The translations under genes were made by a program, and so were the position numbers. Below, piece by piece: positions 32,842 through 51,246 of a stretch of 64,000 bases of DNA (positions are counted from its first letter, which is position 1; every line of letters begins with the position of its first letter). The DNA is from Pseudomonas sp. BN411 (lineage in GTDB: Bacteria > Pseudomonadota > Gammaproteobacteria > Pseudomonadales > Pseudomonadaceae), in the NCBI RefSeq assembly GCF_029871235.1, contig NZ_SSOM01000069.1, forward strand, positions 62,001-126,000, in the 5' to 3' direction. A model generated the notes under the pieces. It searched no databases, had not been told where the DNA came from, and saw nothing but the letters and a program-made list of their open reading frames with translations.

Positions 32842-33032
32842 GTTGGTCCGAGCCCCGCGAGGCCCAACGTTCAGTCCGTGGGGCTGGCACTGTTGGGCTT
32901 CGCTGCGCTCTGCCACAACCTACGTGAGCTCCTGAGCAGGAACTCCAACAGTAGGTTGGTCCGAGCTCCGCGAGGCCCAACGTTCAGAGGGTGGGCCTCG
33001 CACTGTTGGGCTTCGCTACGCTCTGCCACAAC

Positions 33033-33036
<4 letters not shown>
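32821..33036. repeat. Tandem duplication with two GTAGGTTG palindromic elements
   Basis: The element GTAGGTTGGTCCGAG...CCACAACCTAC occurs at 32838-32923 and again at 32951-33036. Each has inverted ends and internal AGGCCCAACGTTCAG / CACTGTTGGGCTTCGCT arms. The duplicated unit also includes the 3' end of cysK (GAGCAGGAACTGCAACAG, repeated at 32934 with one change), giving a 113-base period. The outer ends provide the stop codons of both converging genes. Confidence 0.85.
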
Positions 33037-35988
<2,952 letters not shown>

Positions 35989-36013
35989 TCACGTGCGCGC
36001 CTGAAAGCGCCTT

Positions 36014-36099
36014 GTGGGGGCGAATTCATTCGCAAAGCAGGCCGTAGGCCGGCCAAGGGGGCTGCTGCGCAGCCCATAGAGAATGAATTCGCCCGCCCA
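36014..36099. repeat. GTGGGGGCGAATTCATTCGC composite element
   Basis: Left end GTGGGGGCGAATTCATTCGC, inner hairpins GCAGGCCGTAGGCCGGC and GGGCTGCTGCGCAGCCC, and a degenerate right end GAATGAATTCGCCCGCCCA. Lies between the orphan binding-protein gene and the convergent EamA gene. Confidence 0.8.
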
Positions 36100-36125
36100 G
36101 GTTCATGGAAGATTTTTGTCGGACC

Positions 36126-37034
36126 TTACCCCGCCGATTTCGCCGCAGCCGGCACCGCCGCCGGCTTGAGCACCAGCCACAGCGCCAGGGCGATCAGCAC
36201 GCCGCCTTGCAGGTGCGCCATCGATACCGACTCCCCGAGCAGCAGCACACCCCAGAACACGCCGAAGGGCGGGATCAGGAAGGTCACGGTCATGGTCTTC
36301 ACCGGGCCGACATTGGCGATCAGGCGGAAGTAGAGAATGTAGGCGAACGAGGTGCAGACGAACCCCAGCGCCGCGAGGGCCAGCCAGGTACCGGGTTGCA
36401 GCAGGGGTTCCAGCGGCATGCTCGGGGCATCCCAGGCGAACACCGGCACCAGGCACAGGGTGGCGCCGATCTGGCAACCCAGCGCCACCATGCCGCTGTC
36501 CATGCCACCGGCCTCGGTGATCCAGCGCTTGGTCATGAAGCCGGCGAAGCCGTAGCAGGTGGTCGCCACCAGGCAGGCCGCCGCGCCCCAGAGCAACTGC
36601 GCGTCGAAGGCTACCGGCCCGGTGCGGGTCAGTACTGCAACACCCGCCAGCCCCAGCAACACGCCACCCGCCTTGGTGCCGGTGAGTTTCTCGCTGAAGA
36701 ACAGCGCGCCGATCAAAACCCCCATCAGCGGTGTGGTGGCGTTGAAGATGGCCGAGTAGCCGGCCGGCAGCACCTTGGCCGCCAGGGCGTACATCGCTGC
36801 CGGAACGCCCGAGCTGACGATGCCGATCACCAATGTCTTGCCCAGCTTGCCGCGAAAGTCCCAGTTGCTGCGCAGCACAGCCAGGATCACCGCCAGGCCG
36901 ATGGCCGACAGAAGCACCCGCAGGAAGGCCGTGGGCAGCGCGCCGATTTCCGGCACCAGCATGCGGATGAACAGGAAGCTGGCACCCCAGATGGCGGCGA
37001 GGCTCAGCAGGCGGACGAGGTCGGCGGGTTTCAT
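36126..37034 (-). CDS. EamA/DMT superfamily transporter
   Basis: 302 residues, two EamA repeats and about ten hydrophobic helices. The first repeat begins LLSLAAIWGASFLFIRMLVP and includes SAIFNATTPLMGVLIGALFF; the second begins LLWGAAACLVATTCYGFAGF and ends in PPFGVFWGVLLLGE. It probably exports a metabolite or amino acid. It starts at the ATG of MKPADLVRL. Confidence 0.9.
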   Translation of the reverse strand: MKPADLVRLLSLAAIWGASFLFIRMLVPEIGALPTAFLRVLLSAIGLAVILAVLRSNWDFRGKLGKTLVIGIVSSGVPAAMYALAAKVLPAGYSAIFNATTPLMGVLIGALFFSEKLTGTKAGGVLLGLAGVAVLTRTGPVAFDAQLLWGAAACLVATTCYGFAGFMTKRWITEAGGMDSGMVALGCQIGATLCLVPVFAWDAPSMPLEPLLQPGTWLALAALGFVCTSFAYILYFRLIANVGPVKTMTVTFLIPPFGVFWGVLLLGESVSMAHLQGGVLIALALWLVLKPAAVPAAAKSAG

Positions 37035-37166
37035 GGCAGGCTCCGGGCGGTGGAGCCGGCAAGATGCGCCGCCCGGGAAGGCGGCGCAATCCACAACTTG
37101 CTTTCAAATTGGCGGAACAGTTTTTCGGGGCAGGGCGGGGGATCGCCCCCACAACAGCAACAGCTA

Positions 37167-37898
37167 TCAGAAGCTCTTGCTCACGCTCGCCACCCAGGTC
37201 GCCGTGCAGACATCGGTGAAGCCGTAGTTGCTGGCGCATTCGGCCTCGGAGAGGTCGGTGTCGATGTAGGAGAGGCCCCAGGTGACGCCGACGAAGTCCC
37301 GGGTCAGCTTCGCCTCCCACTCGTGGTAGCTGTCGGTGCTGTCGCCATTGGTGGACCAGAACATCGGGTCCTTGAAGTCCATCCGTCCGTAGCGCAGTTC
37401 CAGGCCGACTTCCAGGGGCAGGCTGGTCTGATAGCCGACGTAGGTGTAGAGCGCGTCCTGGTCTTCGCCGAACACCGTGGAGGCGTCATTGGAGTAGTAG
37501 GCCGCCAGTTGGAATCCATAGGCACCGAGGATGGCGTAGACCTCGCTCTGGTTGAACTGGCTTTCCTTCGGATAGCTGTACTTGATGTAGCCGAGGTCCA
37601 GGTTCACCTCGTCGGTGGCCTGCCAGTACCAGCCGGCGTAGTAGTCCACTTCCTGGCGGGTTTTCAGGCCAAAGCCGAAATCCACGTTCGAGGTCCAGGC
37701 CCCGGCGTAGAGACCGCTGCTGTGCAGCAGTGTGGCTCCGGCCTGGGCAGCGGGATCGTTCTGGGTCTGGGAAATGCCTCGGGTGCGGTAGTCGCTGGCG
37801 AGGTTCAGGTCGATCTGCAGGGCGAAGTCGTCATTCAGTTGCACGGCCTGACAGGCGAGCGGGGCCAGGGTGAGGGCGAGGAGCGTGATGCGGCGCAT
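37167..37898 (-). CDS. TorF-family putative porin, module copy 1
   Basis: 243 residues. A signal peptide (LLALTLAPLACQA) is followed by VQLNDDFALQIDLNLASDYR and TRGISQTQNDPAAQ, the TorF N-terminal signature, then alternating beta-strands ending in VASVSKSF with terminal Phe, as in outer-membrane barrels. About four-fifths of positions match the copy at 40979-41710 by eye, without gaps. The leader contains CACAACAACGG. It lies 104 bases downstream of the amidohydrolase gene on the same strand. Confidence 0.88.
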   Translation of the reverse strand: MRRITLLALTLAPLACQAVQLNDDFALQIDLNLASDYRTRGISQTQNDPAAQAGATLLHSSGLYAGAWTSNVDFGFGLKTRQEVDYYAGWYWQATDEVNLDLGYIKYSYPKESQFNQSEVYAILGAYGFQLAAYYSNDASTVFGEDQDALYTYVGYQTSLPLEVGLELRYGRMDFKDPMFWSTNGDSTDSYHEWEAKLTRDFVGVTWGLSYIDTDLSEAECASNYGFTDVCTATWVASVSKSF

Positions 37899-38002
37899 GG
37901 TGTTTCCCGTTGTTGTGATTGTTATGGCAGATGCGGGCAAGGCTCCGCCCGGCCCCCGGCATTGCGCCGGGAGCAGGGCGTGGAGCGGGAGGAGCTGGGT
38001 GC

Positions 38003-39748
38003 TTAGAGCGGGGCGCTGAAGACCTCGCGGCCAGCGAAGTAGGTCTTGAGGACGCGGGTTTCGGCCAGGTCCTTGTCATCGACGCTGAGCACGTCGCGGT
38101 CGAGGATGATGAAGTCGGCTTGCTTGCCGGCGCTGAGCGAGCCGATCCGCTGTTCCAGGCCGATGGTGCGGGCGGCGTTCAGGGTGTAGGCCTGGAGCAT
38201 GGTTTCCCGGTCGATGCGCTCGTCGGCATTGAGCACGCCTTTCGGACCTTCGCGGCTGATGGCCTGGTGGATCGCCTGCCAGGGGTTGGGCGAGGACACA
38301 GGCCAGTCGCTGGCGCCAGCGATGGTCGCGCCCTGTTGCAGCAGAGAGTGGGCCGGGTACTGGTAGCGGAAGGCGAAGGCGCTGACGTAGGGCTTGACCA
38401 TGTCCAGGGTGTACTCGTCGCCCGAGGCCCAGAGCAACTGCATGGAGGCGATCACATCCAGCGGCTTGAAGCGGGCGAACTCCTTCGGATTCACCAGTTG
38501 CAGGTGGGTGATCGAGTGGGTGATGCCGCTCTGGCGATCCTTGCGCGCCTGCTCGATGCCGTTGAGGGATTCACGCACCGCGCGGTCACCGATGGCGTGG
38601 ATGTGCACCAGCCAGCCACGGGCATCCGCCGCGCTCACCAGCTCGCCGAAATGCGCCGGGTCGATCAGCAGCTCACCTTTCTTCTGCGAGTTGTTGTACG
38701 GGTCGATCAGCGCCGCGCTCTGCGCCGGGTATTCCAGTACGCCGTCAGCGAACACCTTGATGCCGGGCAGGGTCAGGTTGGGGATGCCCTGGAAGCGCTG
38801 GCGCACCTTGTCGAGGGTGTCGAGGTCAGCGGGTCGACTCTTCGGGTTGGCCACCAGCAGGGCGGCGATGTGGGCGCTCAGCTCGCCCTTGTCGGCCAGC
38901 GCCTTGTAGGCTGGCAGCACGCCGACGGACTTCTCGGTGGGCTTGAGCGCGAAGATCGCTTCGCCCGGCGCGGCGTTGGCGGCCGGGTCCATCCAGGCGG
39001 TGATGCCCTGGCTGTTGTTGTACTTCACCGCGGCCTCGCCGGCGCGCAGCAGCTCATCGGCGCTGGCTGGCGGCATGGCGGCGGCGATGCGGTCCCAGCC
39101 GGCATCCACCACGAAACCGTTGGGCTTGCCGTCCTTGCTGGTGCCCACGGTGCCCCGTTCGGCTTCCGGCAGGGAAGCGACCAGCGCGGCGTTCACCCCG
39201 GCGCGGTCGAGCATGGCCTGGTTGGCCCAGCCGGTGTGGTGATCGCTGCCCATGAACACCACCGGCACCTTCGCCCACTCTCCGTTGTTGAAGATGCTCC
39301 CCAGTTCCTCGGCCTTGCTCCAGTAGGTGGAGCTCACGCCGGCCACGCTGAGCACGTCGCCATGGCGGGCGGTGCCGTCGTCGCGCCAACCGCGCAGGCG
39401 TTTTTCCAGATCCGCCAGGGCTACGTTCTCTTCGCTGTCGAGGTTGGCCGCGGTCATTTCCAGGCCGCCGAAGATGGCGTGGGAGTGGGTATCGATCAGC
39501 CCCGGCAGCAGGCGCTTGCCCGCCAGGTCGATGACCTGGGTGGACGCATCGGCCAGGGCCTTGATTTCGGCGTCGGTGCCCACCTTCAGCACCTTACCGT
39601 TTTCGACCGCCATGGCTTGTGCCGAGGGTTGGGAAGGGTCGGCGGTATACAGCTTGCCGTTGAGCAGCACCAGATCGGCGGCCGCCATGGAATCCATCGA
39701 GGAAAAAGCCAGCGACATGGCCAGCAGGGTGGGCGTGAAGCCTTTCAT
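38003..39748 (-). CDS. Exported amidohydrolase (YtcJ-like), module copy 1
   Basis: 581 residues. A signal peptide (TLLAMSLAFSSMDSMAA) precedes the mature ADLVLLNGKLYTADP. Metal-binding motif DTHSHAIFGG has His88 and His90; further ligand regions are LPGIKVFADG, LVHIHAIGDRAV, SITHLQLVNP and GASDWPVSSPNPW, as in the YtcJ/N-substituted-formamide-deformylase group. It should hydrolyse an amide or related C-N bond in the periplasm; substrate unknown. AATAAAAA, an exact AAnAAnAA motif, sits 15 bases before the start. A paralogue lies at 41815-43557. Confidence 0.88.
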   Translation of the reverse strand: MKGFTPTLLAMSLAFSSMDSMAAADLVLLNGKLYTADPSQPSAQAMAVENGKVLKVGTDAEIKALADASTQVIDLAGKRLLPGLIDTHSHAIFGGLEMTAANLDSEENVALADLEKRLRGWRDDGTARHGDVLSVAGVSSTYWSKAEELGSIFNNGEWAKVPVVFMGSDHHTGWANQAMLDRAGVNAALVASLPEAERGTVGTSKDGKPNGFVVDAGWDRIAAAMPPASADELLRAGEAAVKYNNSQGITAWMDPAANAAPGEAIFALKPTEKSVGVLPAYKALADKGELSAHIAALLVANPKSRPADLDTLDKVRQRFQGIPNLTLPGIKVFADGVLEYPAQSAALIDPYNNSQKKGELLIDPAHFGELVSAADARGWLVHIHAIGDRAVRESLNGIEQARKDRQSGITHSITHLQLVNPKEFARFKPLDVIASMQLLWASGDEYTLDMVKPYVSAFAFRYQYPAHSLLQQGATIAGASDWPVSSPNPWQAIHQAISREGPKGVLNADERIDRETMLQAYTLNAARTIGLEQRIGSLSAGKQADFIILDRDVLSVDDKDLAETRVLKTYFAGREVFSAPL

Positions 39749-39762
39749 TGGGAATCCCCTTG

Positions 39763-39770
39763 TTTTTATT
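39763..39770 (-). promoter_or_regulatory. AAnAAnAA (Hfq/Crc) motif before amidohydrolase 1
   Basis: AATAAAAA on the minus strand, immediately upstream of the ribosome site AAGGGGA. It matches the Hfq/Crc catabolite-activity motif. Confidence 0.5.
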
Positions 39771-39854
39771 GATCTGGCAGCGAGACTAGCGGCTGGCCCG
39801 GGCTGGCAGAACGCCCGAAATGTGCAAAACCTTTTTTCCGGAATGGCAAAACCC

Positions 39855-40772
39855 ATGGATAAGCTCGGCGCCATCAGCATGTTCGTCGCCACGGCGGATC
39901 ACGGCAGTTTCAGCCGTGCCGCCGAGCATCTGGGCAAGACCCCTTCGGCCCTGACCAAGGCCGTCAGCCATCTGGAAGATGACCTCGGCGTGCTGCTGTT
40001 CGAGCGCAGTACCCGGCGCACGGTGCTGACCGAGGCCGGGCGGGTCTACCTGGAAACCGCCCGGCAGGTGCTGCAGCGTTTGCAGGACGTGGGGGAGGAG
40101 GTGGGCCAGTTGCAGCACGGCCTGCATGGCAGCCTGCGGCTAACGGCGCCGCTCGCTTTCGGGAGGGCCTTTCTCGATGACGTTTGCGTCGGTTTTCTCG
40201 CCGAGTACCCACAGATTCGCCTGCGGGTGGACCTGTCCGACGACTTCGTCGATCTGGTGGAGTCCGGCTACGACCTCGCATTGCGAGAGGGCCGCAGCGA
40301 CCAGCCGGGGATGATCGCCAGGGCGGTCGGGAGCAATCGCCTGGCCCTGTGCGCCAGCCCGACCTACCTCGCCCGCAACCCGACGCCGGTGACGCCGGAA
40401 ACCCTCGACCAGCACGACTGGCTGCTCTATTACCACGCCGCCCTGGATCGCACCTGGTGGTGGGTGGAACGTGACGGACAGCGCCTGAGCCTGCCCAGGC
40501 CGCCGACGCCGCGCATGGACAGCGACAACCACGACCTGTTGATGGCCAGCGCCCTGGCTGGTGTCGGCCTCTACCATGTGCCGCTGTGGAGTGCCGCCCC
40601 CTATCTCGCCGATGGTCGGCTGGTGCGCCTGATGGCCGACTATGAGATCGACCCCGACGTCTTCGGCGCGCAGATCCTCGCCGTCTACCCCAGCCACCGC
40701 CGCGCCACCGGCAAGGTGCTGGCGTTCATCGACTACCTGGCCGGTTTTCTTGCGGAGCGCGGGTTGGCGTGA
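39855..40772 (+). CDS. LysR-type regulator, module copy 1
   Basis: 305 residues from MDKLGAISMFVATADHGSFS; an ATG 12 bases earlier is in frame but the paralogue starts at the same MDKL. HTH: SRAAEHLGKTPSALTKAVSH. The effector domain follows (GSLRLTAPLAFGRAFLDDVC). It is divergent from the amidohydrolase-porin pair and probably controls it. The gap before it shares patches (TCTGGC, GGCAGAA) with the gap before the second LysR gene. Confidence 0.9.
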   Translation: MDKLGAISMFVATADHGSFSRAAEHLGKTPSALTKAVSHLEDDLGVLLFERSTRRTVLTEAGRVYLETARQVLQRLQDVGEEVGQLQHGLHGSLRLTAPLAFGRAFLDDVCVGFLAEYPQIRLRVDLSDDFVDLVESGYDLALREGRSDQPGMIARAVGSNRLALCASPTYLARNPTPVTPETLDQHDWLLYYHAALDRTWWWVERDGQRLSLPRPPTPRMDSDNHDLLMASALAGVGLYHVPLWSAAPYLADGRLVRLMADYEIDPDVFGAQILAVYPSHRRATGKVLAFIDYLAGFLAERGLA

Positions 40773-40808
40773 AGGATTGGTGCTGATTGCCTGTGGGGGA
40801 GATTACCT

Positions 40809-40902
40809 GTGGGGGCGAATTCATTCGCTAAGCAGTCCGCAGGACTGCCCTTTGACGCCTGAGGGAGCACTGCGTGCTCCTTGGCGAATGAATTCGCCCC
40901 AC
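40809..40902. repeat. GTGGGGGCGAATTCATTCGC composite element
   Basis: Complete copy with inner hairpins GCAGTCCGCAGGACTGC and GGAGCACTGCGTGCTCC and right end GCGAATGAATTCGCCCCACA. It lies exactly between the two porin-amidohydrolase-LysR modules. Confidence 0.85.
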
Positions 40903-40978
40903 ACGGTCCACCGTCGGAGTCAGGTGCCACACCGATGGTGGAAATGAAGAGCGATTTCCACCCTACCAAGGCAGCCCT

Positions 40979-41710
40979 CTAGAAACGCTTGCTCACGCTC
41001 GCCACCCAGGTCGAACTGCACACATCGGTGAAGCCGTAGTAGCTCGCGCACTCCGACTCGGAGAGATCGGTGTCGATGTAGGCGAGGCCCCAGGTGACGC
41101 CGACGAAGTCGCGGGTCAGCTTGGCTTCCCACTCGTGATAGGCGTCGGAGCTTTCGCCCTGGGCGGACCAGAACAGCGGGTCCTTGAAGTCATTGCGCCC
41201 GTAACGCAGCTTCAGGCCCACATCCAGGGGCAGGGTGTTCTCGTAGCTGACGTAGCTGTAGAAGGTGTCCTGCTTCTCGCCGATCAGGTTCTTCGCGTCA
41301 TTGGAGTATTGGGCGCCGAGCTTGAAGCCGTATGCACCGAGGATGGCGTAGGCCTCGCTCTGGTTGAACTGGCCTTCCTTCGGGTAGCTGTACTTGATGT
41401 AGCCGAGGTCCAGGTTCACCTCGTCGGTGGCCTGCCAGTACCAGCCGGCGTAGTAATCCACTTCCTGGCGGGTCTTGAGGCCAAAGCCGAAGTCCACGTT
41501 CGAGGTCCATACGCCGGCGTAGAGCCCGCTGCTGTGCAGCAGGGTGGCGCTGGCCTGGGCCGCTGGATCGTTCTGGGTCTGGGAGATGCCGCGGGTGCGG
41601 TAGTCGCTGAGCAGGGCGAGATCGACCTGCAGGGAGAATTCGTCGTTCAGTTCAATGGCCTGGCAGGCGAGCGGAGCCAGGGCGAGCGCTAGGAAGGTGA
41701 AGCGTTTCAT
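40979..41710 (-). CDS. TorF-family putative porin, module copy 2
   Basis: 243 residues, the same length as copy 1. Signal peptide MKRFTFLALALAPLACQA, then IELNDEFSLQVDLALLSDYR and TRGISQTQNDPAAQ. The core from VDFGFGLKTRQEVDYYAGWY onward is nearly unchanged; differences cluster in segments likely to be surface loops (KNLIGEKQD against TVFGEDQD; AQGESSDA against TNGDSTDS). Such clustering suggests divergence in ligand or exposure while the barrel is kept. The leader again contains CACAACAACGG. Confidence 0.88.
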   Translation of the reverse strand: MKRFTFLALALAPLACQAIELNDEFSLQVDLALLSDYRTRGISQTQNDPAAQASATLLHSSGLYAGVWTSNVDFGFGLKTRQEVDYYAGWYWQATDEVNLDLGYIKYSYPKEGQFNQSEAYAILGAYGFKLGAQYSNDAKNLIGEKQDTFYSYVSYENTLPLDVGLKLRYGRNDFKDPLFWSAQGESSDAYHEWEAKLTRDFVGVTWGLAYIDTDLSESECASYYGFTDVCSSTWVASVSKRF

Positions 41711-41814
41711 CGAGGGTTTCCCGTTGTTGTGATTGTTCGGGCAGATGCAGGCAAGGCTCCGCCAACCCCCGCCAAGTGGCGGGGGATGAGTGCGGAGCAG
41801 GTGGTTACTGGTCG

Positions 41815-43557
41815 TTAGAGAGAGGCGTTGAAGACTTCACGGCCGGCGAACCAGGTTTTCAGTACCTGGGTGTCACGCAGGGCTTCGGGCTCGACCTGGA
41901 ACACGTCGCGGTCCAGCAGGATCAGGTCCGCCTGCTTGCCGGGCGCGAGCGAACCGATCTGCTTGTCGAGACCAATGGTGCGGGCGGAGTTGAGGGTGTA
42001 GGCCTGGAACATCGTCTCGCGGTCGATCTCCTCGTCCGCATTCAGCACGCCCTTGGGCCCCTTGCGGCTGACCGCCTGGTAGATGGCTTTCCAGGGTTCG
42101 GGGGTGGTCACCGGCCAGTCGCTGGCGCCGGAAATGGTCGCTCCATTCTTCAGCAGCGAACGGGCCGGGTACTGGTACTGGAAGGCCATCGCGCTGATGT
42201 AGGGCTGCACCAGGTCGATGCTGACCTCATCGGCGCTAGCCCAGTAGAGCTGCATGGAAGCGATCACACCGAGCGGCTTGAAACGGGCGAATTCCTTCGG
42301 GTTGACCATCTGCAGGTGGGTGACCGAGTGGGCGATGCCGCTCTGACGGTCCTTGCGCGCCTGCTCGATGCCGTTCAGGGATTCGCGCACCGCGCGGTCG
42401 CCGATGGCATGGACATGCACCAGCCAGCCACGGGCGTCGGCCGCGCTGACCAATTCGCCGAAGTGCGCGGGGTCGATCAGCAGCTCGCCACGCTTGTTCG
42501 AATTCTTGTAGGGATCGAGCATCGCCGCAGTCTGTGCTGGAACTTCGGCTACCCCATCGGCGAAGACCTTGATGCCGGGCAGGGTGAGGTTGGGCACGCC
42601 CTGGAACTGCTGGCGCACCTTGTCCAGGGTGTCGAGGTCGGCGGGACGGCTCTTCGGGTTGGCCACCAGCAGGGCGGCGACGTGGGCGGTCAGCTCACCC
42701 TTCTCGGCCAGTGCCTTGTAGGCCGGCAACACACCCAAGGTCTGGGCGGTGGGTTTGAAGTCGAACAGAGGCTCGCCCGGCGCGGCGTTGGCCGCCGGGT
42801 CCATCCAGGCGGTGATGCCCAGGCTGAGGTTGTAGCGCAGTGCCGAGCGGGCGGCTTTCAGCAGTTGATCGGCGGTAGCCGGTGGCAGCTGCGCCATCAC
42901 CGGGTCCAGGCCGGCGTCGGCGAGAAAACCATTGGGCTGGCCATCGTCGTGATGACCGATGGTGGCCTGCGCCTCGCCCTTCAAACTCTTCACCAGGGCG
43001 GCGTCGACGCCGGCGCGTTTCAGCATCGCCCGGTTGGCCCAACCGGTGTGGTGGTCCCAGCCCATGAAGAAGATCGGCACCTCGGCCCATTCGCCCTGGT
43101 TGAAGCGCTGTTCCAGCTCAGCCACCTCGCCCCAGGCGGCCGACGGCATGCCGCTGACGCTGAGCACATCGCCATGCCGCGCCTTGCCGTTGTCGCGCCA
43201 CTGGCGCAGGCGCTGCTCCAGTTCCGCCGCAGGGATCAACTGCCCGCCGAGGCTGGCCGAATCCAGTTCCAGCCCGCCGAAGATGGCGTGGGAATGGGAG
43301 TCGATGAAGCCCGGCATCAGCACCTTGCCGCCGAGGTCGATCACCTGGGTACCGGATTCCTTGAGTTTCAGTACGTCATCGTTGCTGCCGACAGCGCGAA
43401 CCTTGCCGTCTTCCACGGCCACGGCCTGTTGCAGGGCCTGGCCGGGTTCGGCGGTGTAGACCTTGGCGTTGTGCAGGATGAGATCGACCGCCGCGAAGCT
43501 TTCCATTGAGGAACAAGCCAGCGCGACGGCCAGTAGGGTAGGGGCGAAGGTTTTCAT
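41815..43557 (-). CDS. Exported amidohydrolase (YtcJ-like), module copy 2
   Basis: 580 residues, colinear with 38003-39748. Signal peptide TLLAVALACSSMESFAA, metal motif DSHSHAIFGG, LPGIKVFADG, LVHVHAIGDRAV, SVTHLQMVNP and GASDWPVTTPEPW are all kept, so both copies look catalytically intact. Divergence is strongest around residues 95-130 and 190-240. AACAAGAA, an exact AAnAAnAA motif, lies just before the start. The 105-base gap to the porin gene matches copy 1 closely. Confidence 0.88.
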   Translation of the reverse strand: MKTFAPTLLAVALACSSMESFAAVDLILHNAKVYTAEPGQALQQAVAVEDGKVRAVGSNDDVLKLKESGTQVIDLGGKVLMPGFIDSHSHAIFGGLELDSASLGGQLIPAAELEQRLRQWRDNGKARHGDVLSVSGMPSAAWGEVAELEQRFNQGEWAEVPIFFMGWDHHTGWANRAMLKRAGVDAALVKSLKGEAQATIGHHDDGQPNGFLADAGLDPVMAQLPPATADQLLKAARSALRYNLSLGITAWMDPAANAAPGEPLFDFKPTAQTLGVLPAYKALAEKGELTAHVAALLVANPKSRPADLDTLDKVRQQFQGVPNLTLPGIKVFADGVAEVPAQTAAMLDPYKNSNKRGELLIDPAHFGELVSAADARGWLVHVHAIGDRAVRESLNGIEQARKDRQSGIAHSVTHLQMVNPKEFARFKPLGVIASMQLYWASADEVSIDLVQPYISAMAFQYQYPARSLLKNGATISGASDWPVTTPEPWKAIYQAVSRKGPKGVLNADEEIDRETMFQAYTLNSARTIGLDKQIGSLAPGKQADLILLDRDVFQVEPEALRDTQVLKTWFAGREVFNASL

Positions 43558-43571
43558 CGGGTGATTTCCGG

Positions 43572-43579
43572 TTCTTGTT
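43572..43579 (-). promoter_or_regulatory. AAnAAnAA (Hfq/Crc) motif before amidohydrolase 2
   Basis: AACAAGAA on the minus strand at the same relative place as in module copy 1, although the surrounding leader sequence has diverged. Confidence 0.5.
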
Positions 43580-43664
43580 GGTCTGGCGGTGAGCCTAACC
43601 AAGCCGGTGAAGCGGCAGAATGCTATGTTCTCGCACAACTTTTGTGCCGAACCGGAACAGATAG

Positions 43665-44579
43665 ATGGACAAGCTCAGCGCGCTCACCATGTTCGTCGCC
43701 ACTGCCGAATACGGCAGCTTCAGCCGCGCCGCCGAACAGCTGGGCAAGACGCCCTCGGCCTTGACCAAAGCGGTAGGGCATTTGGAAAACGAGCTGGGCG
43801 TGCGGCTGTTCGAACGCACCACCCGACGCATGGCGCTGACCGAAGCCGGGCATATCTACCTGGAGGGCGCCCGGCAGGCGTTGATGCAACTGCAACTGGC
43901 CGGCGAGGAAGTGGACCAGTTGCAGCACGAACTGCGTGGCACGCTGCGCCTTACCGCGCCGCCATCCTTCGGCCCGGCGTTTCTCAACGAGGTCTGTTGC
44001 CGCTTCATGGATGCCCACCCCCAGGTGCGCCTGGAGGTGGACCTGAACGACGCCTTCGTCGACCTGATCGACGGTGGCTACGACCTCGCCCTGCGCGATG
44101 GCCCCACCGACCTGCCGGGGCTGATTGCAAGGCCGCTGACGGAGAACCGCATCTACCTGTGCGGTAGCCCCGGTTATCTGGAGCGCAAAGGGTTGCCGGT
44201 GACCCTGGAAACCTACCTGCAGCATGACTGGCTGATCTTCCAGCACCCTCTGCTCCACCGGCACTTCTGGTGGCTGTGGCGCGACGGCGAGCGCATACGC
44301 TTGCCGCAACCCGTGCCCAGGATGGCCAGCGATAACTACGACTTCCTGCTCGCCTGCCTGCTGGCCGGCCACGGTTTGCAGGTGCTTCCGCGCTGGAGTG
44401 CGGCGCCCTATCTGGCCAACGGCCAACTCGTGCGCGTGATGACCGACTACGAGTTGGAGCCCGACGCCTTCGGCCCCTGGGTTCATGTCCTCTACCTGGC
44501 CCACCGCCGCCGCACCCGCAAGGTTCGGGTGTTTATCGAGATGCTGGAGGGGTACATACGGGAGAAGGGGATTGCCTGA
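43665..44579 (+). CDS. LysR-type regulator, module copy 2
   Basis: 304 residues, MDKLSALTMFVATAEYGSFS with HTH SRAAEQLGKTPSALTKAVGH nearly identical to copy 1. The effector domain diverges more (for example LMQLQLAGEEVDQLQHELRG). The near-identical recognition helix suggests that both regulators could read the same operator while sensing different ligands. Divergent from amidohydrolase 2. Confidence 0.9.
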   Translation: MDKLSALTMFVATAEYGSFSRAAEQLGKTPSALTKAVGHLENELGVRLFERTTRRMALTEAGHIYLEGARQALMQLQLAGEEVDQLQHELRGTLRLTAPPSFGPAFLNEVCCRFMDAHPQVRLEVDLNDAFVDLIDGGYDLALRDGPTDLPGLIARPLTENRIYLCGSPGYLERKGLPVTLETYLQHDWLIFQHPLLHRHFWWLWRDGERIRLPQPVPRMASDNYDFLLACLLAGHGLQVLPRWSAAPYLANGQLVRVMTDYELEPDAFGPWVHVLYLAHRRRTRKVRVFIEMLEGYIREKGIA

Positions 44580-44596
44580 CTGCGTGACTCCACATT

Positions 44597-44691
44597 GTGG
44601 GGGCGATTTCAATCGCTAAGCAGGCCACAGGCCTGCCCTTTCGGCTAAAGGGGGTAGCTACGCCACCCATGGCGAATGAATTCGCCCCTAC
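44597..44691. repeat. GTGGGGGCGAATTCATTCGC composite element (variant left end)
   Basis: The left end is GTGGGGGCGATTTCAATCGC, with two changes that keep its own small palindrome (GCGATTTCAATCGC). Inner hairpins are GCAGGCCACAGGCCTGC and GGGTAGCTACGCCACCC; the right end is GCGAATGAATTCGCCCCTAC. It lies between the second LysR gene and aceK. Confidence 0.8.
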
Positions 44692-44750
44692 AACGCGCAA
44701 TTTTTTCTGGATAAGCTCGCCTTTCCCGTTTCCGCAGCCGAGACATCAAC

Positions 44751-46487
44751 ATGGCGCAGCAATGGCCGGCCGAAGGCATCGCCCGACTGATCCTCGAAGG
44801 GTTCGACGACTACCGTGAGCATTTCCGCCAGATCACCGATGGCGCCCGCGCCCGCTTCGAGGAGGCACAGTGGCAGGCCACGCAGCTTGCGGCGGCCGAG
44901 CGGATTGCTCTCTATGAGATAAAGGTCGGTGAAACCAGCGAACGGCTGAGCGCGGCCTACGCGGTGGATGAACTGCTGGACGTGCAGCTCTGGCCGCTGG
45001 TGAAAAGCGCCTACATCGGCCTGATCGACCTGCGCCTCGACGATGAACTGTCCGAGACCTGGTACAACTCGATTTTCTGCAGCCTGTTCAGCCACGACCT
45101 GATCAGCGACGGCTGCATGTTCATCCACACCACCCGGCCTTCGCTACGGGCCCACGAGCGTGCGCCCCAGACCCGCAGCTACCACCCCGCAGGCCGGCTG
45201 CATGCGGCGCTCTCGGCGGTGCTCGATGACTTCCGTTTCGACGTGCCCTACGACGACCGCGCCGGCGACCTGGAACGCCTCGAAACCCAGCTGCGCGAGA
45301 ACCTGCCGGACTGGGTCTGCAAGGACCCGGAACTGTGCATCGAACTCTTCGCCTCGCCGCTGTACCGCAACAAGGGCGCGTACCTGGTGGGGCGCATCTA
45401 CACCCGCGACGAGCAATGGCCGCTGGTGCTGCCGCTGCTGCACCGCGAGGGCCGCGGCATCCAGGCCGACGCCGTGATCACCGACGAAGCGGAAGTGTCG
45501 ATCATCTTCTCCTTCACCCGTTCCTACTTCATGGTGGACGTGGCCGTGCCCGCCGAGTTCGTCGGCTTCCTCAAGCGCATCCTGCCGGGCAAGCACATCG
45601 CCGAGCTGTACACCTCCATCGGCTTCTACAAGCACGGCAAGTCGGAGTTCTACCGCGCGCTGATCAATCACCTGGCCAACACCGACGACCGCTTCATCAT
45701 GGCGCCCGGCGTGCGCGGCATGGTGATGAGCGTATTCACGCTGCCGGGCTTCAATACCGTGTTCAAGATCATCAAGGACCGTTTCGCCCACGCCAAGACG
45801 GTGGATCGCAACACCGTGATCGAGAAGTACCGCCTGGTGAAGAACGTCGATCGGGTAGGGCGCATGGCCGATACCCAGGAGTTCGCCGACTTCCGCTTCC
45901 CCAGGTCCAAGTTCGAGCCGGATTGCCTGGCCGAACTGCTGGAGGTGGCGCCGTCCACCGTAGCGCTGGAGGGCGATGTGGTGCTCATCCGCCACTGCTG
46001 GACCGAGCGCCGCATGACCCCGCTGAACATCTACCTGGAAAGCGCCAGCGACGCCCAGGTGCACGAGGCGCTCTACGACTACGGCCTGGCCATCAAGCAG
46101 CTGGCGGCAGCGAACATCTTCCCCGGCGACATGCTGCTGAAGAACTTCGGCGTCACCCGCCACGGCCGCGTGGTGTTCTACGACTACGACGAGATCTGCT
46201 ACCTCACCGAGGTGAACTTCCGCGTCATCCCGCCGCCGCGTTACCCGGAGGACGAGATGTCCGCCGAGCCCTGGTATTCGGTGGCGCCCAACGACGTATT
46301 CCCCGAGGAATTCCCGCGCTTCCTCTTCGCCGACATCGGTCAGCGCCGGCTGTTCGCCAAGCTCCATGGCGAGCTCTATGACGCCGAGTACTGGAAGACC
46401 CTGCAGGCCGCCATCCGCTCCGGCAAGGTGATCGACGTCTTCCCCTACAGGCGCCAGGAACGAGAACTCACCGAGGCCATCCAGTAA
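44751..46487 (+). CDS. aceK: Isocitrate dehydrogenase kinase/phosphatase
   Basis: 578 residues, the normal AceK length. Bifunctional control of isocitrate dehydrogenase at the TCA/glyoxylate branch. The ATP-binding segment [18 protein letters not shown] near residue 320 and [20 protein letters not shown] with YDEICYL (kinase-type catalytic Asp) near residue 475 are visible. There is no aceA or aceB here; in Pseudomonas aceK is commonly separate. It is followed after five bases by an AraC-type regulator on the same strand. Confidence 0.96.
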
Positions 46488-46492
46488 GGATC

Positions 46493-47512
46493 ATGGTCGA
46501 GCACACCTTCTCCCGCGCCACCTGGCTGAACTCGCTGCACATGTCGGCGCTCACCGTGGCGCTGCTGCAGGAAGAGGGCATCGCTGCCTGCGATCTGCTG
46601 GCCGGCAGTGGCATCAGCGAACAGGACCTCGCCGAACTGCAAAAGCTGGTCAACCCCGAGCAGGAGCAGCAGGTCTACGCCAACGCCGCGCGCCTGGCGC
46701 CGCGCCCGGCCATGGGCCTGGCCCTTGGTCTGCGCACCCGCATTTCCGCCTACGGCCTGCTGGGCTACGCCATGCTGTCCGCGCCCACCTTCGGCGAGGC
46801 CCTGCGCGTCGGCCTGAGCTACCCGGTGCTGCTGGGTACCTACTTCCGCCTGGCGCTGGAGCAGGATGGCGACATCGCCTGGCTCACCGCCACCGGCTAC
46901 AGCGAGGACGAGTCGCTACGGGCGTTCAACACCGAAGTCTGCCTGGGCTCGCTCAAGGTCACCTTCGCCGACCTGCTGGGCCAGCCCCTGCCGCTGCACG
47001 CGGTGCAGGTGGACTATCCCTCCGGCAGCGGCATGGCGCGGCCCTATGCACGGGGATTCGGTTGCCCGGTGAGCTTCGGCGCCAACCGCAGCGCCATCGG
47101 TTTCGACGCTGCCTGGCTGACCCGCCGCCTGCCGCTCGCCGACCCGGTGACCCACAAGGAAATGCTCGAACAATGCCGCCGGCAGAACGTCGAGTTCGCC
47201 GCCCGCCGCGCCTGGCTGGAACGGGTGCGCGGCCTGCTCGCCGCCCGCCTGGCCGACCCGCCGGGGCTGGAGGAACTGGCGAAGCAGATGAACTGTTCCT
47301 CGCGCAGCCTGCGTCGCCACCTGGCCCAGCAGCAGACCAGCTACCAGCAACTGCTGGACGAACTGCGCTTCACCCGCGCCAAGGAAATGCTCCAGCAGGG
47401 CGACATCCCCATCTACCGCATCGCCGAGGCGCTCGGCTTCAGCGAAACTGCCAGCCTGCGCCACGCCTTCCAGCGCTGGAGCGGCCAGCCGCCGAGCCAT
47501 TTCCGGGGGTAG
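46493..47512 (+). CDS. AraC family regulator with arabinose-binding-like N-terminal domain
   Basis: 339 residues. The N-terminal Arabinose_bd-type domain (ISAYGLLGYAMLSAPTFGEA near residue 85) is followed by a C-terminal double HTH: LEELAKQMNCSSRSLRRHLA and IYRIAEALGFSETASLRHAF ending in QRWSGQPPSHFRG. This is the OruR/ArgR-like architecture of Pseudomonas. It lies between aceK and the acetylpolyamine amidohydrolase gene; the latter has tandem TGGCC half-sites upstream, so local control is plausible. Confidence 0.9.
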   Translation: MVEHTFSRATWLNSLHMSALTVALLQEEGIAACDLLAGSGISEQDLAELQKLVNPEQEQQVYANAARLAPRPAMGLALGLRTRISAYGLLGYAMLSAPTFGEALRVGLSYPVLLGTYFRLALEQDGDIAWLTATGYSEDESLRAFNTEVCLGSLKVTFADLLGQPLPLHAVQVDYPSGSGMARPYARGFGCPVSFGANRSAIGFDAAWLTRRLPLADPVTHKEMLEQCRRQNVEFAARRAWLERVRGLLAARLADPPGLEELAKQMNCSSRSLRRHLAQQQTSYQQLLDELRFTRAKEMLQQGDIPIYRIAEALGFSETASLRHAFQRWSGQPPSHFRG

Positions 47513-47604
47513 TGGAGGGGAGTAGGGAGAACCTGTGGGGGCGATTTCAATCGCAATGCGGACCGCAGGTCCGCCCTCTCTGGTGTTGGATTGGCGCCAT
47601 GGCT

Positions 47605-47707
47605 CGTAAGTTGGGCCGGGCGGCGTTCCGCGAGCGCAGCGAAGCCCAACAGCGGAGTCATCGGCGGGCCAGGATGTTGGGCTTCGCGTAGCTCAGCCAC
47701 AACCTAC
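47605..47707. repeat. GTAGGTTG-type palindromic element
   Basis: CGTAAGTTGGGC at one end and CACAACCTACGG at the other, with inner GCAGCGAAGCCCAACA and TGTTGGGCTTCGCG arms. Same family as the two copies after cysK. Confidence 0.75.
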
Positions 47708-47743
47708 GGGGCTAGCGAAATGCAGCGAAGTGGAAGGGGTTGC

Positions 47744-47781
47744 TGGCCATTGAAGTTGGCCATATTGATCCCCTATTGGCC
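47744..47781 (+). promoter_or_regulatory. Direct TGGCC half-sites upstream of the acetylpolyamine amidohydrolase gene
   Basis: TGGCCAT at 47744-47750 and 47757-47763 and TGGCC at 47777-47781, spaced 13 and 20 bases. AraC-family activators bind such direct repeats. The adjacent AraC gene is the natural candidate. Confidence 0.4.
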
Positions 47782-47831
47782 GCCCGAACCTCTGCGCAAA
47801 TACCCCCGATCCCCCACAGAATCCAACCACC

Positions 47832-47839
47832 AATAACAA
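47832..47839 (+). promoter_or_regulatory. AAnAAnAA (Hfq/Crc) motif before the acetylpolyamine amidohydrolase gene
   Basis: AATAACAA lies 21 bases before the start codon, next to the GATGAGG ribosome site, a position where Hfq/Crc binding would block translation. Confidence 0.5.
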
Positions 47840-47860
47840 GACCCGGATGAGGTGCCCTCC

Positions 47861-48901
47861 ATGCTGACCGTCTATAGCGACGATCACCGTCTCCACTTTG
47901 GCCAGTCGGAACTGGTCGACGGCAAGCTCCAGCCCTGTTTCGAAATGCCCAGCCGTGCGGACACCGTGCTGGCGCGGGTTCGCCAGCAGGAAATCGGTGA
48001 AGTCATCGAGCCGAAGGACTTCGGCCTGGAGCCCATCCTGCGGGTGCATGACGCTGCCTACGTGGAGTTCCTCAAGGGTGCCTGGGCCCGCTGGGCCGCC
48101 GAAGGCCACAGCTGCGACATGCTGCCCAGCACCTTCCCGGCGCGCCGCCTGCGCCGCGACGGCCCGATTCCTACCGCGCTGCATGGCCAGCTCGGCCATT
48201 ACTGCTTCGACACCGAGGCGCCCATCACCGCCGGCACCTGGCAGGCCGTGTACAGCTCCGCCCAGGTGGCGCTGACCGCCCAGGACCATATGCGCCAGGG
48301 CGCCAACACCGCCTTCGCCCTTTGCCGTCCGCCGGGACACCACGCCGGCAGCGACTTCATGGGCGGTTACTGCTTCTTCAACAACGCCGCCATCGTCACC
48401 CAGGCCTTCCTCGACCAGGGCGCGAAGCGCGTGGCGATCCTCGACGTCGACTACCACCACGGTAACGGCACCCAGGAGCTGTTCTACGAGCGCAGCGACG
48501 TGCTCTTCGCCTCGATCCATGGCGACCCGCTGGTGGAATACCCCTACTACCTGGGCCATGCCGACGAGCGCGGCGAAGGCGAGGGAGCCGGCTTCAACCA
48601 CAACTACCCGCTGCCCCACGGCACCGGTTGGGACGGCTGGTCCGCCGCTCTGGACGATGCCTGCCGCAAGATCGCTGCCTACGCGCCGGACGCGCTGGTG
48701 ATCTCCCTCGGCGTGGACACCTACAAGGACGACCCCATCTCCAAGTTCAAGCTGGACTCGCCGGACTACATCCGCATGGGCCAGCGCATCGCCGCACTGG
48801 GCCTGCCGACCCTGTTCATCATGGAAGGCGGCTACGCGGTGGAGGCCATCGGCGTGAACGCGGTGAACGTGCTGCAAGGCTACGAAGGGGCCGCCCGATG
48901 A
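47861..48901 (+). CDS. aphA: Acetylpolyamine amidohydrolase (histone-deacetylase family)
   Basis: 346 residues. Zinc and charge-relay motifs of the HDAC fold: CRPPGHHAGSDFMGGYCFFN, AILDVDYHHGNGTQELF and SLGVDTYKDDPISKF, with the transition-state tyrosine in MEGGYAVEAIGVN. It deacetylates N-acetylputrescine or acetylcadaverine-type substrates in the cytoplasm. The gene after it starts inside its stop codon (ATGA) and encodes a polyamine-binding protein. The pair matches P. aeruginosa PA1409-PA1410 as I remember them. Confidence 0.93.
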   Translation: MLTVYSDDHRLHFGQSELVDGKLQPCFEMPSRADTVLARVRQQEIGEVIEPKDFGLEPILRVHDAAYVEFLKGAWARWAAEGHSCDMLPSTFPARRLRRDGPIPTALHGQLGHYCFDTEAPITAGTWQAVYSSAQVALTAQDHMRQGANTAFALCRPPGHHAGSDFMGGYCFFNNAAIVTQAFLDQGAKRVAILDVDYHHGNGTQELFYERSDVLFASIHGDPLVEYPYYLGHADERGEGEGAGFNHNYPLPHGTGWDGWSAALDDACRKIAAYAPDALVISLGVDTYKDDPISKFKLDSPDYIRMGQRIAALGLPTLFIMEGGYAVEAIGVNAVNVLQGYEGAAR

Positions 48902-49983
48902 AAGCCCGCATCCTGCTGGCGGGGGCCCTGCTGGGCGCTTCGCTGAACGCTGTCGCCGAGCCTGAAGTACGCATCTACAACTGGTTCGACTACATCGGCC
49001 CGAACACCCTGAAGGACTTCCAGGCCGCCTCTGGCATCAAGCCCCAGTACGACGTCTACGACAGCAACGAAGTGCTGGAGGCCAAGCTGCTCTCCGGCCA
49101 TTCCGGCTACGACCTGGTGGTGCCCAGCGACGGCTTCCTGCCCAACTACATGAAGGCTGGCGTGTTCCAGCCGCTGGACAAGAGCAAGCTGCCCAACTGG
49201 AAGAACCTCAACCCGGCGCTGCTCAAGGTGCTGGCCGCCAAGGACCCGGGCAACCAGTACGTGATGCCCTACATGTGGGGCACCAACGGCATCGCCTACA
49301 ACGTCGACAAGGTGAAGGCGGTGCTGGGCGAGAACGCGCCGGTGGACTCCTGGGAGCTGATCTTCAACCCGGACAACCTGGCCAAGCTCAAGCAGTGCGG
49401 CGTGGCCTTCCTCGACTCGCCCACCGAGGTGATCCCGGAAGTGCTGCACTACCTGGGCCTGTCGCCCAACAGCCGCAACCCCGAGGACTACGAGAAGGCG
49501 GAGGCGCTGCTGGCCAAACTCCGGCCGAACATCACCTACTTCAGCTCCTCGAAGTTCGTCACCGACCTCGCCAACGGTGAAGTCTGCGTGGCCCTGGCCT
49601 GGTCGGGCGGTGCCATGCAGGCCGCCGCCCGTGCGAAGGAAGCCGGCAATGGGGTGAAGGTGGAGTACCGCATTCCCAAGGAAGGCACCGCGGCCTGGTT
49701 CGATGTGCTGGCCATTCCGAAGGACGCGAAGAACGTCGAGCAGGCCCATGCCTTCCTCAACTACCTGCTGCAGCCCGAAGTCGTCGCGCCTATCTCCGAC
49801 CACGTGGCCTACGCCAACCCCAACCAGGCGGCCGATGCGTTGACCTCGGCCGAGCTGCGCGACAACCCCAACGTCTACCCGCCCGCCGAGGTGCAGGCCA
49901 AGCTGTTCTCGGTGGAGATGCTGCCGCCGAAGCTGGAACGCATCCGTACCCGCACCTGGACCAAGATCAAGACGGGGACCTAG
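48898..49983 (+). CDS. Polyamine ABC transporter substrate-binding protein coupled to aphA
   Basis: 361 residues. A signal peptide ends [40 protein letters not shown] and VVVPSDGFLPNYM match the PotF group. It overlaps aphA by four bases, implying that it collects acetylated or free polyamines for the deacetylase pathway. No permease or ATPase gene is next to it. It resembles 34903-36014's gene in length and wording but is clearly diverged. Confidence 0.92.
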   Translation: MKARILLAGALLGASLNAVAEPEVRIYNWFDYIGPNTLKDFQAASGIKPQYDVYDSNEVLEAKLLSGHSGYDLVVPSDGFLPNYMKAGVFQPLDKSKLPNWKNLNPALLKVLAAKDPGNQYVMPYMWGTNGIAYNVDKVKAVLGENAPVDSWELIFNPDNLAKLKQCGVAFLDSPTEVIPEVLHYLGLSPNSRNPEDYEKAEALLAKLRPNITYFSSSKFVTDLANGEVCVALAWSGGAMQAAARAKEAGNGVKVEYRIPKEGTAAWFDVLAIPKDAKNVEQAHAFLNYLLQPEVVAPISDHVAYANPNQAADALTSAELRDNPNVYPPAEVQAKLFSVEMLPPKLERIRTRTWTKIKTGT

Positions 49984-50011
49984 ATACGCTCCGCGTTGGT
50001 GCCTGCCTTTT

Positions 50012-50106
50012 GTGGGGGCGAATTCATTCGCGAAGGGCTGCGTAGCAGCCCCTCAACCTCAATGGGGCAGGCCTTCGGCCTGCTTAGCGAATGAATTCGC
50101 CCCCAC
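50012..50106. repeat. GTGGGGGCGAATTCATTCGC composite element, complete
   Basis: Best-preserved copy: left end GTGGGGGCGAATTCATTCGC, hairpin GGGCTGCGTAGCAGCCC, then hairpin GCAGGCCTTCGGCCTGC, then the exact inverse right end. The minus-strand MFS gene reads 15 codons into it before its stop. Confidence 0.9.
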
Positions 50107-51246
50107 AGATTTCCGATCCCGAGTCCCTATCATCAATCCTCCCGCCAGCATCAATCCCGCGCCTGCTACATAGAGCGCGGGTTGCAGATCGCCGCTGAAA
50201 TTGCTGCTGGCAGCCGCCAGCAGCGGGCCGGCCAGTTGCCCCAGGGCGAAGGCGGCGGTCAGCAGGCCGACGTTACGGCTATGGCCCTGAGGGTCCAGTT
50301 CGCGGGCGTACTGCATCACCAGTTGCATGCCGGCAAGGAAGGGGCCGCCGCTGAGGATCACACCCAGAACCAGTCCAGCCATGCCCGGTAGCGCGCAGGC
50401 GAGGGTGCCCGCAGCCTGCAGCCAGAGCGCGATCACCAGCCAGCGGCGCGCGCCTCCGGGACGCTGGCGGCGCAGGCTGACCAGCAGAACACCGAGCGCA
50501 GCCGCCAGGCCGAAGGCCGGCCAGAACAGGTCCGCCTGCCATTGGCCATGAAAACGCGCGGCGGCCATCTGCGACAGGAAGGTGGCAGGAATGATGTAAC
50601 CCAGGCCCACCAGGCCATAGGCAGCAAGCAGCGCATACAGGGCGCGCGGCCGCTGTCGGACGGGTTGGCTCGCCGCCACGGTGGTCGCTTGCGGGTGGGG
50701 CAGCAGCGGATGGGTAACCAGGGTCAGCAGCAGGGCCAGAACGCCGAAGGCCAGCCAGAGCATGGCCGAGCCCTGGCCTTGCAGGTTCAGTTCCAGGGCC
50801 AGCAAGCCGGTCAGCATCACCCCGAAGGCTGGGCCGGCGAAAACCAGGCTGCCCAGGCGCGGCCTGTTGGCCTCGGCAGCAAGGCGTTGGCTGAGGCCGG
50901 TGACCACCACCAGCACCCAGGCGCTGGTCACCCCCAGGACGAAGCGCAGCAGCACGTGGGGCCAGAAGCCTTCGGTCAGTACCGATGCCAGGGTCAGCAG
51001 CACGGTGGCCCAGAGGCCCAGCATCAGGCGCAACCGTGCCTGTCGCGGAGAGCTGGCGTAGAAGGCGTCCAGGGCGCCGACCAGGTAGCCCAGGTAGTTG
51101 GCGGCGGCTACCAGGCCGGCACCGGTGAGGCTCACCTGGCCTTCGGCGATCAGATGCGGGAGCAGCGGAGTTAGCGCGAAACGCCCGACGCCCATGGCGA
51201 CGAGCAGGGCAAGGAAACAGGCGAGCAGGCGGATCAGCGTTGGCAT
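50059..51246 (-). CDS. MFS transporter, YbfB/YjiJ type
   Basis: 395 residues from MPTLIRLLACFLALLVAMGV, with GRFALTPLLPHLIAEGQVSL typical of the YbfB group and 12 hydrophobic segments. The last 15 residues (VGANSFAKQAEGLPH) come entirely from the composite repeat at 50012-50106, so the original end was lost or extended. Divergent from a LysR gene, which probably regulates it. Substrate unknown. Confidence 0.88.
   Translation of the reverse strand: MPTLIRLLACFLALLVAMGVGRFALTPLLPHLIAEGQVSLTGAGLVAAANYLGYLVGALDAFYASSPRQARLRLMLGLWATVLLTLASVLTEGFWPHVLLRFVLGVTSAWVLVVVTGLSQRLAAEANRPRLGSLVFAGPAFGVMLTGLLALELNLQGQGSAMLWLAFGVLALLLTLVTHPLLPHPQATTVAASQPVRQRPRALYALLAAYGLVGLGYIIPATFLSQMAAARFHGQWQADLFWPAFGLAAALGVLLVSLRRQRPGGARRWLVIALWLQAAGTLACALPGMAGLVLGVILSGGPFLAGMQLVMQYARELDPQGHSRNVGLLTAAFALGQLAGPLLAAASSNFSGDLQPALYVAGAGLMLAGGLMIGTRDRKSVGANSFAKQAEGLPH

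Follow-up and report, generated by a model that had tools for sequence, protein, structure and literature searches.

Two adjacent porin-amidohydrolase-LysR modules in Pseudomonas sp. BN411: a conserved, probably amide-scavenging system with genes of unequal age

OprD, Tsx and CymA are substrate-specific outer-membrane channels encoded with catabolic genes. A dedicated outer-membrane channel next to presumed catabolic genes also occurs, twice, in the DNA analysed here, a stretch of 64,000 nucleotides from Pseudomonas sp. BN411 (hereafter the window). At 37167..44579 it holds two adjacent modules, each composed of a TorF-family putative porin (por1, por2), an exported Amidohydro_3 metal hydrolase (ami1, ami2) and a divergent LysR-type regulator (lys1, lys2). 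The nearest described logic, a porin and enzymes under one regulator, is that of E. coli nanCMS, in which a porin, a mutarotase and an O-acetyl esterase are controlled by NanR (PMC3658417). The modules differ from nanCMS, and from the KdgM/NanC porins whose 12-strand fold their own porins share in our model, in that the porin is TorF/Gcw_chp by sequence, the enzyme is a metal amidohydrolase and the regulator is a LysR. Unlike nanCMS, the window has two modules, apparently switched differently, side by side.

On the enzyme side, the metal-dependent bile salt hydrolases BwBSH1/2 of Bilophila are likewise secreted Amidohydro_3/YtcJ-like proteins with five metal ligands and a lysine, and they cleave an N-acyl amide; BwBSH1 differs in its size of 101 kDa and in an extra C-terminal domain that the window enzymes (581 and 580 residues) lack, and the accessible part of the source names no porin or LysR partner (PMC13081902). 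The same source describes most enzymes of the superfamily, and so most Amidohydro_3 enzymes, as uncharacterised and names NfdA, the N-substituted formamide deformylase, as a PF07969 member (PMC13081902). The window enzymes share the Pfam family and, presumably, amide cleavage with NfdA, a likeness taken at the level of the family. We know of no porin linked to NfdA, and among the papers listed by keyword searches of the open-access literature there was no description of a porin-amidohydrolase-LysR set. The locus is a conserved variant of a known logic.

On balance we favour the reading that these are parallel, separately switched amide-scavenging modules, whose enzymes and LysRs are old paralogues and between which the porin was most likely copied. 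A sequence-only reading of this DNA had proposed a module of pore, exported hydrolase and divergent sensor, duplicated in tandem and then specialised. The module idea stands, but the duplication is wrong for two of the three genes. Linkage in other genomes speaks for the module. Among 148 genomes of the family, 57 TorF homologues (E up to 1e-60) were found in 43 genomes, and 44 of them lie directly behind an enzyme, the gap between the end of one match and the start of the next being 104-209 nt. The same genomes contain 74 enzymes (E up to 1e-180; 38 genomes), 44 with an adjoining porin and 30 without. A divergent LysR is present at 79 of the 86 enzymes examined outside the window: at 23/24 of type 1, 14/14 of type 2, 28/28 of type 3 and 8/8 of type 4, and among the rarer types at 5/5 of type 2p, 1/3 of type 5, 0/2 of type 1x and 0/2 of type 2q. 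These type labels were read from trees and neighbourhoods; the locus of G130 (L141) bears the label 2p, but its enzyme branches basally on the type-1/4/5 side and its LysR basally on the type-2/3 side. Type 4, from another genus, keeps the LysR-enzyme-porin order in 8/8 loci, and an enzyme match of 77-100% identity was found in 20 of 25 genomes. Import, cleavage and sensing of a compound by each module are what we infer.

According to the coordinates (Table 1), the six genes have the sizes, order, orientation and spacing originally read for them. The enzyme-porin gap is 104 nt in both modules, and the LysR-enzyme gap is 106 nt in module 1 and 107 nt in module 2. Direct repeats at a near-constant spacing of 3809-3814 bases extend over parts of the six genes, and DNA identity is uneven along the module. 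Pairwise alignment over full length gave amino acid identities far above chance (porin 81.5%, enzyme 70.3%, LysR 61.8%). Because the non-synonymous and synonymous divergences between the copies (NG86 dN/dS) give low ratios (porin 0.108/0.391, enzyme 0.217/0.649, LysR 0.287/0.772), all three gene pairs are under purifying selection. The permease gene eamA starts 72 nt behind the por1 stop on the same strand; six terminator-like sites were found, a number at chance level, and none lies between por1 and eamA. Since eamA is directly behind por1, on the same strand, and closes the array in 16 of 18 genomes of the genus (the two in which it was not found are G004 and G001), it probably belongs to the module as a fourth gene. 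Outside the genus, too, an EamA gene stands behind the porin, in L144 and in L039/L139, which are a single strain. No sigma-70 consensus site was found in 36000-44800, and no RNA element at gathering score in 33000-50500.

Table 1. Features of the two modules and their surroundings, in window positions
Feature	Position	Strand	Basis or remark
eamA, EamA-family permease (PF00892)	36126..37094	-	probably closes an ami1-por1-eamA operon and may supply the inner-membrane step
por1, TorF-family putative porin, 243 aa	37167..37898	-	TIGR02001
ami1, exported Amidohydro_3 metal hydrolase, type 1, 581 aa	38003..39748	-	PF07969
Predicted LysR1 operator, type-1 palindrome	39824..39838	.	conserved palindrome in divergent promoter
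lys1, LysR-type regulator, 305 aa, divergent from ami1	39855..40772	+	PF00126 (HTH_1) and PF03466 (LysR_substrate)
REP pair (inverted repeat), dispersed, not module-specific	40812..40900	.	pattern search
por2, TorF-family putative porin, 243 aa	40979..41710	-	TIGR02001; 81.5% to por1
ami2, exported Amidohydro_3 metal hydrolase, type 2, 580 aa	41815..43557	-	PF07969
Predicted LysR2 operator GCACAANNNTTGTGC	43633..43647	.	conserved palindrome in divergent promoter
lys2, LysR-type regulator, 304 aa, divergent from ami2	43665..44579	+	PF00126 (HTH_1) and PF03466 (LysR_substrate)
REP pair behind lys2, before aceK; array boundary	44600..44688	.	pattern search
REP positions in window	21393, 36017, 40812, 44600, 47538, 50015, 53460, 61414	.	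pattern search

Both amidohydrolases match PF07969 (ami1 1.6e-73, 249 bits; ami2 1.2e-77, 263 bits; cut-off 29.7), with the Amidohydro_3 domain spanning residues 71-577 and 71-576, respectively, and both carry hydrophobic N-terminal leaders, as judged by eye. The metal motifs are intact in the two enzymes, as had been claimed: H88, H90, H171, K331, H382, H384, H415 and D481 are invariant in 88/88 enzymes, their roles at the metal site (HxH, Lys, His, Asp, auxiliary His) being assigned by homology. Structure alignments took in 52 of 88 enzymes and 36 of 46 porins, and type-specific enzyme residues were placed by predicted strand ends. The structure model of ami1 has a predicted local distance difference test score (pLDDT) of 90.8, and the structural neighbours retrieved with VIA-align include amide-toxin hydrolases, ochratoxinase among them, and imidazolonepropionases. 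The former, together with the presence of an exported hydrolase with its own LysR, would suit a role in detoxification or signal quenching, in which the enzyme destroys a harmful amide (an antibiotic or an N-acyl signal) and the porin is incidental. We consider this quite unlikely, as a dedicated porin would admit more of the compound, and the permeases and second amide hydrolase that accompany relatives fit use of the product. Scavenging is the role we prefer.

Both porins belong to TorF (TIGR02001: por1 155.9 and por2 152.1 bits, cut-off 47.15; PF09694: 106 and 106.9 bits, cut-off 24). The AlphaFold2 (AF2) model of por1 has 12 strands (pLDDT 87.1) and is, as modelled, a KdgM/NanC-like narrow barrel; the C-terminal aromatic residue F243 is kept in at least 90% of 36 porin rows. 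By sequence the porins did not fall with KdgM/NanC, which we take to be a Pfam family of its own: PF09694 was the sole Pfam match at E up to 0.001, and a profile of 36 porins found no relative in the PDB (single match, a sugar kinase, E 0.94). The two porins had been thought to differ mainly in loops. This was not borne out, since differences are as frequent in strands (25/141 residues) as elsewhere (16/84; p=0.86), although one long hairpin, residues 129-160, takes up 15 of the 45. A search of the source genome with por1 found no TorF porins other than the tandem pair. To our knowledge, TorF porins have no assigned substrates.

The recognition helices of lys1 and lys2 are nearly identical (KTPSALTKAVSHLE / KTPSALTKAVGHLE), in agreement with the sequence-only reading. 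Among 81 divergent intergenic stretches, including the two of the window, a palindrome stands about 16-32 nt upstream of the LysR gene in types 1 and 2. Type 1 has GCAAAA-N3-TTTTGC, though in the window and its closest relatives one base on the left is changed; type 2 has GCACAA-N3-TTGTGC, so that the two differ by one symmetric base. The fourth half-site pair is A/T in 25/25 type-1 loci, while in type 2 (n=15) it is C/G in 11 and T/G in four. At least nine of ten fixed bases are present in 54/81 loci, compared to at most two in any of 200 letter shuffles; as the motif was derived from the scored sequences, which are related by descent, this score describes conservation and not binding. The palindrome is mixed in type 3 and absent in 4/5 type-2p loci, and each of the two window forms occurs once in the genome. 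At LysR positions 52, 56 and 57, which presumably lie in the wing, type 1 has no residue in common with types 2/3; type 2p is less clean, with S52 as in type 1 in 4/5. Since the helix is common while wing residues and operators differ between types, the modules likely have two switches with little cross-talk, and with operators and wings so diverged they probably respond independently to different compounds. Specialisation of the two modules is plausible, given the type-specific residues and distinct operators.

Trees were built from 44 named loci and stretches of further genomes. After removing identical rows, 88 of 91 enzymes, 82 of 85 LysRs and 46 of 48 porins remained, and five distant porins were dropped before the porin DNA tree, leaving 41. 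The trees of 88 enzymes and of 82 LysRs both group type-1 copies with relatives in P. viridiflava, P. turukhanskensis, P. brassicacearum and others, and type-2 copies with type 3; for these two genes the modules are closer to separate orthologues than to each other, an outcome that the sequence-only reading had itself named as refuting local duplication. The hypothesis of the sequence-only reading, with copies 1 and 2 of the genus in one clade, was rejected by approximately unbiased (AU) tests on quick LG+G4 trees built beforehand with no mixture model (p 1.51e-5 for the enzyme, 5.57e-42 for the LysR); under this model, a local duplication of the whole module is rejected as far as enzyme and LysR are concerned. 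Identities agree. A third locus of the same genome (G000:C40) has an enzyme that shares 65% identity with ami1 and a divergent LysR beside it, and copy 2 is nearer to this locus than to copy 1 (ami2-ami3 74.8% against ami2-ami1 70.3%; lys2-lys3 74.3% against lys2-lys1 61.8%). Type-1 enzymes of other lineages, for their part, share 76-78% identity with ami1, and their LysRs about 75% with lys1. As paralogue dS exceeds orthologue dS (enzyme 0.60 versus 0.42-0.43; LysR 0.76 versus 0.55-0.58), the enzyme and LysR pairs are, to judge from these divergences, old separate paralogues, older than the porin pair.

The porins tell a different history. The porin tree unites por1 and por2 of the crown genomes in a single clade (support 100/99, 22 of 41 rows) that excludes the single porins of the reverse-order (B) genomes and of other lineages, and porin paralogue dS (mean 0.41, 8 genomes) is the same as that between orthologues (0.40). 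We think that the porin was likely copied within the genus, with which the local duplication proposed earlier is compatible for this gene. What weighs against this is that AU tests of an enzyme-like porin history gave p 0.154, 0.155 and 0.093; such a history is thus left unrejected, and the copying is likely rather than proven. The alternative is that whole modules, porins included, were duplicated anciently and that gene conversion later homogenised the porins only. The unrejected topology suits it, as does G002 (L129:7222-7959), where the porin beside a type-1 enzyme is por2-like, which hints at exchange between the modules. We regard it as rather doubtful, because no TorF porin was found beside the five type-2p, the two type-2q and 27/28 type-3 enzymes (the exception is G080, behind the permease), and because porin dS within a genome (0.41) is hardly below that across genomes (0.45), so that there is no strong ongoing conversion.

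A simple local tandem duplication of the three-gene module in this lineage, followed by divergence, would explain the like order, orientation and spacing of the copies, the high identity of the porins and the adjoining pair, in the same order, in 8/18 genomes of the genus. Nevertheless, the AU tests, the nearness of copy 2 to the third locus, the unequal dS of enzyme, LysR and porin and the reversed order in B genomes make it highly improbable. A composite repeat had also been described exactly between the copies. It is a dispersed repetitive extragenic palindromic (REP) pair, present also behind lys2; the REP pattern has 184+191 matches in the genome, some of them overlapping readings of one site (control pattern, 0), and 14 in the window, which make up six facing pairs and two singles. 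We therefore reject the idea that a special repeat mediated duplication.

Arrangements vary among the 18 genomes of the genus, the window's included. The order aceK-[2+porin]-[1+porin]-eamA is found in G000, G003, G005, G006, G010, G012, G013 and G015. In G007 (L130, L131) a single contig carries the two modules with some 70 kb between them, module 2 next to aceK and module 1 next to eamA; it looks as though something had entered in between. In three genomes (G004, G009, G017) the modules are swapped, aceK-[1+porin]-[2 without porin], and eamA follows in G009 and G017; unequal crossing-over is a conceivable cause of the swap. G008 is split over contigs, its module 2, without porin, adjoining eamA. 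Module 2 is alone in G011 and G016, and module 1 in G002 and G014; G001, whose aceK is near a contig start (base 402), has no module. In the aceK tree the reverse-order genomes tested (G004, G009, G017) are basal, although the bootstrap of this tree had yet to converge, while their module 2 enzyme and LysR nest inside the crown clade, and this discordance points to transfer or conversion.

The third locus and its relatives (LysR-ami3-AAT/C45-MHS(-BCCT)) share with the window modules the enzyme and LysR families, the divergent layout and the footprint region. They differ in having no TorF porin; instead, a second hydrolase, which we take to be Ntn-type, and an MFS permease are present, followed in the source genome by a BCCT transporter. 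An AAT hydrolase is near 27/28 type-3 enzymes and an MHS permease near 28/28. The MHS name, as well as that of the PotABCD-like ABC subunits below, is a tentative assignment of ours.

An amide or ureide substrate is our guess. A cyclic amide or ureide, instead of a linear N-acyl amine, would fit L142 and L143, where enzyme and porin are in a same-strand run with a second amidohydrolase, and the imidazolonepropionases among structural neighbours. In L142 (4376-10515) two amidohydrolases, a TorF porin and an NCS1-type (cytosine/purine/allantoin) permease stand in a row on one strand. On the other side, type 3 pairs with the AAT hydrolase, of a family known for linear amides, and one locus has a classical amidase; a cyclic substrate thus seems unlikely, if less so than detoxification. 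In one run, L145:3-9811 joins an amidase and ABC genes of the PotABCD kind to a type-2-like enzyme, an AAT hydrolase and an OprD porin. The divergent type-1 enzymes of L066:31-12630 and L140:5529-12518 have an S15-type acylase, a TorF-like porin and a chemoreceptor-like gene nearby, joined in L066 by a PotF-like protein and a second Amidohydro_3.

In the window, PotF-like solute-binding genes flank the region (34900-36000 and 47852-49983), and a gene of the histone-deacetylase fold (acetylpolyamine amidohydrolase-like) at 47852-48901 adds to the polyamine look of the neighbourhood, the link of which with the modules does not reach significance. A polyamine substrate was considered from PotF/PotD-like neighbours and left as a lead: they occur in 7/32 contexts compared to 1/20 controls (p=0.10), the contexts being hand-chosen, one per lineage and setting, several of them fetched for porin matches, and the reference proteins being taken from the loci themselves.

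Because eamA adjoins por1 and relatives have other permeases, we propose a route from porin to periplasmic hydrolase to a swappable permease. The 12-strand TorF porin would admit a small amide- or ureide-type compound, the exported binuclear-metal enzyme would cut it in the periplasm, and the product would cross the inner membrane by a lineage-specific permease, EamA here and MHS-type MFS, NCS1 or PotABCD-type ABC in relatives. The divergent LysR would sense substrate or product and activate the enzyme-porin operon from its own palindromic operator. The interval from aceK to eamA would have come to unite old paralogues of enzyme and LysR, and the porin was most likely copied from one module to the other inside the genus. 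It is tempting, though clearly more tentative, to extend this to an undescribed pseudomonad platform, in which a conserved core of LysR and exported amidohydrolase gains a TorF porin time and again and swaps its permease (EamA, MHS, NCS1, PotABCD). Several paralogues in one cell would each handle a different amide and be insulated from one another by a symmetric change of one operator base, which the LysR wing would read.

In summary, each module probably takes up a different amide-type nutrient, cut in the periplasm. As tight linkage ties porin, enzyme and sensor together, a single inducer, once identified, would hint at a substrate common to the three. The adjacent modules offer a natural case for testing what keeps LysR paralogues separate, with helices in common and wings and one operator base that differ. 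Finally, the unequal ages of porin, enzyme and LysR are a warning that tandem look-alikes need not be tandem duplicates.

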